Shown here one piece after another: positions 35,220 through 35,619 of a DNA stretch of 43,159 nucleotides. How positions within the stretch are numbered: the stretch's first letter is position 1; every line of letters starts with the position of its first letter. Under the pieces are notes generated by a model. The model saw nothing but the letters and a program-made list of their open reading frames with translations, had not been told where the DNA came from and did no database searches. A program made the translations under genes and the position numbers. The stretch spans positions 1 through 43,159 of the forward strand of contig JAGCVD010000040.1 of assembly GCA_017962545.1 (NCBI GenBank). The letters are read 5' to 3'. Origin of the DNA: Bacteroidales bacterium (lineage in GTDB: Bacteria > Bacteroidota > Bacteroidia > Bacteroidales > P3).

Positions 35220-35290
35220 CAACTGCAATGCGCACCCGCCACCTACCGGCAACAAGCATTGCAACAGACCTTTGAATAAAATTTTTTCAT

Positions 35291-35456
35291 CGAGGTTTCC
35301 CCTTGAAAAAGGGGGACGAAGAGGGAATCACGTGCAAACCGTGAGCTGTCGCGCAACTGTAAATCACCCCATTGTTTTCGGCGGGCAAAAAAGCCATTGG
35401 GTCGGCATCGGCCTGAGAAGGCGCCGCGCCGGAAGGTGAAAGCCAGGAGACCTGCC
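35291..35456 (+). ncRNA. Cobalamin (B12) riboswitch
   Basis: The conserved core is clear: GAGGTTTCC near the 5' side, GGGAATCACGTGCAAACCGT (35323-35342), GAGCTGTCGCGCAACTGTAA (35343-35362), GGAAGGTGAAA and the B12 box AGCCAGGAGACCTGCC (35441-35456). This is a member of the cobalamin riboswitch class (RF00174 type), which binds adenosyl- or methyl-cobalamin and usually lowers expression when the vitamin is plentiful. It stands ahead of a CoA transferase gene (35620), a less usual target than B12 uptake or synthesis genes. A possible closing helix AAGCATTGC (35254-35262) / GCAATGCTT (35471-35479) flanks it. Confidence 0.95.
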
Positions 35457-35619
35457 CCGTTGACTTATTGGCAATGCTTTCGCGTCAAAGGCGGTTGTCC
35501 ATCCTAATGCGTTAATATGTAAACGCGCTAGAGTGTTACTCTCCGAGTATCCTTTCCGTCATTGTACCGTGCATTGCCGCAAAATGGTGATGCATGTTGA
35601 ACCAATAAACTATATAACA

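Follow-up and report, generated by a model that had tools for sequence, protein, structure and literature searches.

The locus and its relatives

The window, i.e. the whole 43,159-nt stretch of Bacteroidales DNA that was analysed, contains a gene for a CoA-transferase of a 4-hydroxybutyrate CoA-transferase-like family, whose relatives in the PDB are named 4-hydroxybutyrate CoA-transferase (best E-value 5.2e-153) and whose score lies under the TIGR03948 cut-off. The gene begins at 35620 (most of its orthologs start with MNWK) and is preceded by a long leader with the following features:

35212..35219, + strand: promoter -7 element TATATTTG, a TAnnTTTG at a set distance from the aptamer
35224..35263, + strand: 5'-terminal hairpin A:B, boxB-like (A, 35224-35231; B arm, 35256-35263), scored as z against shuffles
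35265..35276, + strand: boxA-like motif CAGACCTTTGAA, conserved among 52 leaders and also present, 3' of a hairpin, in rRNA leaders of the genus
35276..35473, + strand: cobalamin riboswitch aptamer, RF00174 (cmscan 95.7 bits, gathering threshold 31.5)
35350..35353, + strand: L5 CGCG, by sequence a putative kissing partner of L13
35470..35499, + strand: P13 hairpin, C:E (C strand, 35470-35480; L13 CGCG, 35481-35484; E strand, 35488-35499)
35568..35596, + strand: D:F hairpin (F arm, 35585-35596), ending 23 nt from the start codon; local fold -15.1 kcal/mol
35571..35578, + strand: D, partner of C or of F, judged by its pairing with C across leaders
35620..36927, + strand: CoA-transferase gene (PF02550 and PF13336)

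An earlier note on this DNA had pointed to four complementary segments around the riboswitch, and these lie where it placed them: A TGCAATGC (35224-35231), B AAGCATTGC (35254-35262), C GGCAATGCTT (35470-35479) and D GCATTGCC (35571-35578). The three pairings that it listed, A:B (8 bp), B:C (9 bp) and C:D (8 bp), are all possible by sequence in the window. The end of D is 41 nt from the ATG at 35620, so that a C:D hairpin would indeed stand close upstream of the gene (about 42 nt in the note), and no T-run terminator was found between 35100 and 35700, in agreement with its statement that the leader has none. Three elements are to be added to that list, namely E as a third partner of C, F as a second partner of D, and the boxA-like motif directly 3' of B.

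Conservation was analyzed over 87 orthologs of the CoA-transferase (at least 76% identity, within the genus), which provided 86 usable upstream regions; one locus with almost no upstream sequence (L121) was dropped, and the region was short in a few more (284 nt in L058). A strict filter found both riboswitch motifs in 55 of the 86. The aptamer of L070, missed by the filter, was found by Rfam, which places the riboswitch in at least 56 of the 86. Counts for the 5' hairpin are over 53 leaders (L072 and L085 excluded), tests of hairpin-C complementarity and of the motif over 52, and the two-state test over 44, as D was poor or too far away in 11. All statistics run over related leaders and ignore their kinship, with no tree correction. 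In the riboswitch-free relatives the promoter is often far closer to the gene; three of these leaders (L066, L100 and L110) retain, by eye, a remnant like boxA close to the promoter, as though they had lost the aptamer. Among public records the nearest are assemblies of uncultured Bacteroidales or Bacteroidetes, many of which come, to judge by their titles, from samples of ruminant gut.

A hairpin and a boxA-like motif at the 5' end of the leader

The element TAnnTTTG, which we take to be the -7 element of a Bacteroidetes-type promoter, is found 108-120 nt upstream of the aptamer GGGAA in 53 of the 55 leaders (searched at 90-140 nt), and transcription presumably starts a few nucleotides downstream of it. 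In the window, the hairpin A:B that follows scores z = -5.1 when compared with shuffles, and z falls below -2 in 41 and below -1 in 51 of the 53 leaders. A and B pair better within a leader than between leaders: the fixed 8-pair register is paired in 230 of 376 cells over 47 distinct leaders, above every one of 2000 trials in which whole strands were swapped (mean 193.7, maximum 217), and the duplex averages -10.5 with its own partner versus -5.7 with the B of other leaders.

The motif, located allowing up to 3 substitutions, reads CAGNNCTTTGAA in most leaders; among the 52, an A, a G and two Ts are invariant at four positions, and the C after NN differs in 2. It follows TTTG by 44-45 nt in 51 of the 55 leaders and in the window lies about 345 nt 5' of the CoA-transferase start codon. 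The idea that the motif pairs with the P1 5' strand was tried and discarded, as such pairing reached p ≤ 0.05 in just 7 of 52 leaders.

The same architecture occurs elsewhere in the genus. Promoter, hairpin and motif stand in the same order in all three rRNA leaders of the genus that were read, with spacings of 61, 45 and 36 nt, and thus a hairpin of the boxB type lies beside the motif in each of these leaders as A:B does here. The window and two of the three match the consensus AGNNCWTTGAA exactly; the third (L203) departs from it by one letter, as does a 16S-23S spacer (AGCCCTTTGACA), the single spacer read, in which a short hairpin, seen by eye, is followed by AGAGCCCTTTGACA. Also by eye, the rRNA leaders show a candidate boxC, GCGTGTGT, 3' of boxA.

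A pattern of promoter, 32-48 nt and motif matched 113 times, in 75 of 120 genomes of the genus, versus 8 times for its reverse, and 35 of the 113 fall by coordinates in CoA-transferase leaders; since the pattern itself requires the motif, the evidence lies in where it occurs. When 20 of the 30 fetched loci, CoA-transferase leaders left out, were submitted to Rfam, five were rRNA leaders, two tRNA operons and one another B12 riboswitch, with no match to any Rfam family at the remaining 12. One of these 12, L216 (G047:C13), carries the module 5' of a gene that, read from its protein, seems to encode polynucleotide phosphorylase (pnp). By sequence match, nearly identical copies of the L216 promoter, hairpin and boxA-like motif exist in G011, G015, G055, G134, G137 and G144.

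On the other hand, the module was absent from all 17 B12 aptamers taken from elsewhere in the genus (those left of the 21 top-scoring rows once three further G047 sites and one in the window's own genome had been set aside), so that a riboswitch of this class can do without it. Among 393 sampled genomes of the order, only two of which belong to the genus of the window, the boxA motif was found beside the aptamer GGGAA in just two, the window's own and G401. In the latter (L260, confirmed as RF00174) the motif comes about 11 nt after TTTG, which leaves no room for a 5'-terminal hairpin ahead of it, and within this sample of the order the combination of module and riboswitch is largely confined to the genus. 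As the pair recurs at rRNA, tRNA and pnp-like loci and is missing from these 17 aptamers, we read A:B as a boxB-like hairpin and the motif as a putative boxA, an identity taken from sequence and place, which together would form an antitermination module of the rRNA type, used on untranslated RNA and lying outside the ligand switch.

The B:C helix and a possible contact between the 5' hairpin and C

The earlier note had treated B:C as the alternative to A:B plus C:D, closing the whole aptamer like an outer P1. Nine such pairs are found in the window and in L045 (80% DNA identity), and the helix is energetically near its competitor when folds are enforced on the whole window leader (-127.1 kcal/mol for B:C, -128.7 for A:B plus C:D, -126.4 for A:B plus P13 and -132.6 for the free fold). 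Moreover, one arm of the 5' hairpin matches C better than stem-permuted controls do in 22 of 52 leaders, compared with 6 of 52 when C is reversed. However, a run of at least 7 contiguous B-C pairs is present in only 7 of 53 leaders; in the close relative L038 (94% identical protein) it is reduced to 5, and A:B forms even in leaders whose B is unable to pair with C. Which arm matches C differs between leaders, being A in some and B in the rest, free folds of the window give B:C a probability of 0-0.04 while A:B has 0.93-0.98 for five of six transcript ends, and a like hairpin stands in rRNA leaders that have neither riboswitch nor C. We therefore reject B:C as a conserved helix, the window energy and the 22 of 52 leaving some doubt, and regard its role as outer P1 as very improbable, though the 5' hairpin may contact C in some species.

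The observation of the earlier note is thus confirmed, while its interpretation is partly supported and about half right. A:B and C:D are real and kept in relatives, and C does enter mutually exclusive helices, as a ligand switch requires; on the other hand, B:C is not general and is not supported as the alternative to A:B plus C:D, and the better rival of C:D is C:E together with D:F.

Alternative partners of C and D

The P13 hairpin, GGCAATGCTTTCGCGTCAAAGGCGGTTGTC, begins with C and has a local fold of -8.5 kcal/mol in the window. A local hairpin is present at this site in all 55 leaders (-5.5 to -12.7), in which the C strand and the L13 loop are near-invariant and the E strand varies more. 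The position of C:E and its CGCG loop, complementary to the CGCG of L5, mark it as a probable P13/L13 of the kissing-loop type described in passages of PMC10653944. A kissing loop between L5 and L13 is thereby predicted from sequence; both loops are constant by eye in the alignment and so show no covariation.

C and D form seven or all eight of their 8 pairs in 46 of the 55 leaders, and the pairing reaches p ≤ 0.05 against dinucleotide shuffles in 31, with no good D in 9; in 100 dinucleotide shuffles of the downstream region, none provided C with a partner as good as D. At its variable pair (22 G-C, 8 A-U, 8 G-U and 8 A-C) covariation was not significant (Fisher test; p = 0.19). When P13 is enforced, D:F forms with at least 5 pairs in 34 of 44 leaders.

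Compared with shuffled flanking stretches, the C:D state is on average 4.6 and the P13 state 5.6 kcal/mol more stable (44 leaders); for the platform of the window alone the values are -39.6 with C:D and -37.7 with P13. The two states lie within 5 kcal/mol of each other in 28 of the 44 leaders (mean -0.9), C:D being the more stable in 27. This near-equality was rejected as evidence of a switch, because shuffled controls that keep C, P13 and D are also close (about -1.9). The start region (-25 to +13) is more open with C:D (unpaired 0.66) than with P13 (0.51), a difference of 0.148 versus 0.072 in controls (p = 5e-6; 44 leaders).

Free folds of the whole window leader give A:B plus D:F, with E paired to the B12 box of the aptamer. 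In them P13 has a probability of 0-0.03 and C:D of at most 0.12, falling to at most 0.001 once F is transcribed, the kissing loop and tertiary contacts lying outside the fold model. The pairing of E with the B12 box was discarded as a general anti-aptamer helix, as it reached p ≤ 0.05 in 10 of 55 leaders. The switch is likely to be one between C:E plus D:F, with B12 bound and the start less open, and C:D, with B12 unbound.

Proposed mechanism and alternatives

A leader that combines two devices, a boxB/boxA module at its 5' end and a choice of partner by C at its 3' end, is in our judgement somewhat probable. A:B and the motif would load an antitermination complex of the NusB/S10 type, a predicted binding, and RNA polymerase would then pass through about 400 nt of structured leader, which is untranslated, and escape termination by Rho. 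On binding of B12, a kissing loop of L5 and L13 would stabilise P13, and D would pair with F, in a hairpin 23 nt from the start codon that would limit access and turn expression off. Without B12, C would pair with D, F would be freed and the more open start region would allow expression. We infer control at translation in this scheme, and the less open start region of the P13 state, which goes beyond that of the controls, points to repression by B12. The further proposal that a metabolite riboswitch transcript starts with an rRNA antitermination signal, the Nus complex riding RNA polymerase through the sensor and so coupling B12 sensing to processivity, appears to us evenly balanced.

The 5' hairpin and motif might instead merely shield the mRNA 5' end from decay, the motif then not being a boxA. 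Terminal hairpins are common RNA stabilisers, and this one would begin within a few nucleotides of the transcription start. Protection from decay leaves unexplained, however, a conserved motif that is seen again in rRNA leaders, in a 16S-23S spacer, before tRNA operons and in front of a pnp-like gene, and we consider it an unlikely sole function. A role for Rho inside the leader, terminating in the C-rich stretch from P13 to D in one ligand state while boxA bars it further upstream, would fit the C content of that stretch, which exceeds its G content in 36 of 44 leaders, and the guarding of rRNA from Rho by boxA complexes, as described in passages of PMC5725501 and PMC7819879. Yet the pyrimidine runs there are only slightly long (p ≤ 0.05 in 9 of 44 leaders), and this reading seems improbable.

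The sign of regulation could also be the opposite, with P13 plus D:F permitting expression of a CoA-transferase that belongs to a B12-dependent succinate-propionate route. Methylmalonyl-CoA mutase has two matches in the genome of the window, which makes activation of the gene by B12 plausible. The HpaB family, presumably that of 4-hydroxybutyrate dehydratase, had no match in the 81% complete assembly, and the route from 4-hydroxybutyrate to butyrate was rejected on that account as the reason for B12 control. An activating corrinoid riboswitch has a precedent in passages of PMC10653944; against this, P13 makes the start region less accessible in the folds, and the corrinoid riboswitches in passages of PMC9600662 and PMC10653944 repress, apart from one activating case termed the first known. 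Activation is thus conceivable but doubtful, and repression by B12 is the sign that we retain.

Relation to known systems

Both the riboswitch class and boxA are already known. With the kissing-loop cobalamin riboswitches of RF00174, such as those of P. megaterium metE and A. halodurans cobT, this leader shares the aptamer, a putative P13 with a loop complementary to L5 and a predicted helix in competition with P13. In metE, according to passages of PMC10653944, the 3' strand of P13 forms an antiterminator, and the case supports the rule that the alternative helix should outcompete P13 in the absence of the kissing loop; here, in contrast, no terminator was found and it is the 5' strand of P13 that pairs with D, whose other partner, F, precedes the start codon.

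Like the rRNA leaders of its genus, the leader runs from promoter to hairpin to a boxA-like motif, the layout of an rRNA-type boxB/boxA (NusB/S10) module, with protein binding here predicted; in E. coli, passages of PMC5725501 place boxA upstream of the 16S and 23S genes. Here, however, the module heads a riboswitch mRNA and not a stable RNA. The same passages describe a boxA outside rRNA in E. coli suhB, where binding of NusB/E represses translation; the two cases are alike in that a boxA outside rRNA acts, or here would act, on a protein gene, but the motif here is far upstream of the start, before a riboswitch. Searches of openly licensed papers yielded none on a boxA combined with a riboswitch leader, for which an earlier report is possible, and none joining B12 riboswitch, Bacteroidetes and CoA transferase; on riboswitch mechanism in Bacteroidales they yielded little.

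An rRNA-type leader at the head of a riboswitch mRNA is a more surprising result than the switch itself, and suggests that the machinery by which RNA polymerase keeps going on untranslated RNA has been recruited to a gene switch. Long structured untranslated leaders are exposed to Rho, and the question of how they avoid premature termination is rarely raised; a riboswitch headed by a boxA module would, if true, be a direct answer and would extend antitermination of the rRNA type to metabolite-controlled genes in Bacteroidales. The 3' part of the leader offers a testable three-partner switch, with C paired to E or D and D to C or F, and ties B12 to a CoA-transferase of fermentation.

Other aptamers and RNA matches

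The genome of the window (81% complete) has three other cobalamin aptamers, each with a promoter adjoining the aptamer. Shortened aptamers were found in three CoA-transferase leaders (L054, L056 and L061, from G019, G145 and G151), which have 57-59 nt from GGGAA to the B12-box region instead of 103-130, carry GCCAGAGTACC in place of GCCAGGAGACC, and score 55-59 bits, above the Rfam cut-off. Another B12 riboswitch, L003 (G000:C5), precedes a gene read by eye as anaerobic ribonucleotide reductase, and its P13-like hairpin sits right at the start codon. Finally, the window itself contains at 14300-14345 a match to the Rfam family Acido-Lenti-1 RNA (46.1 bits), here in a Bacteroidales genome.
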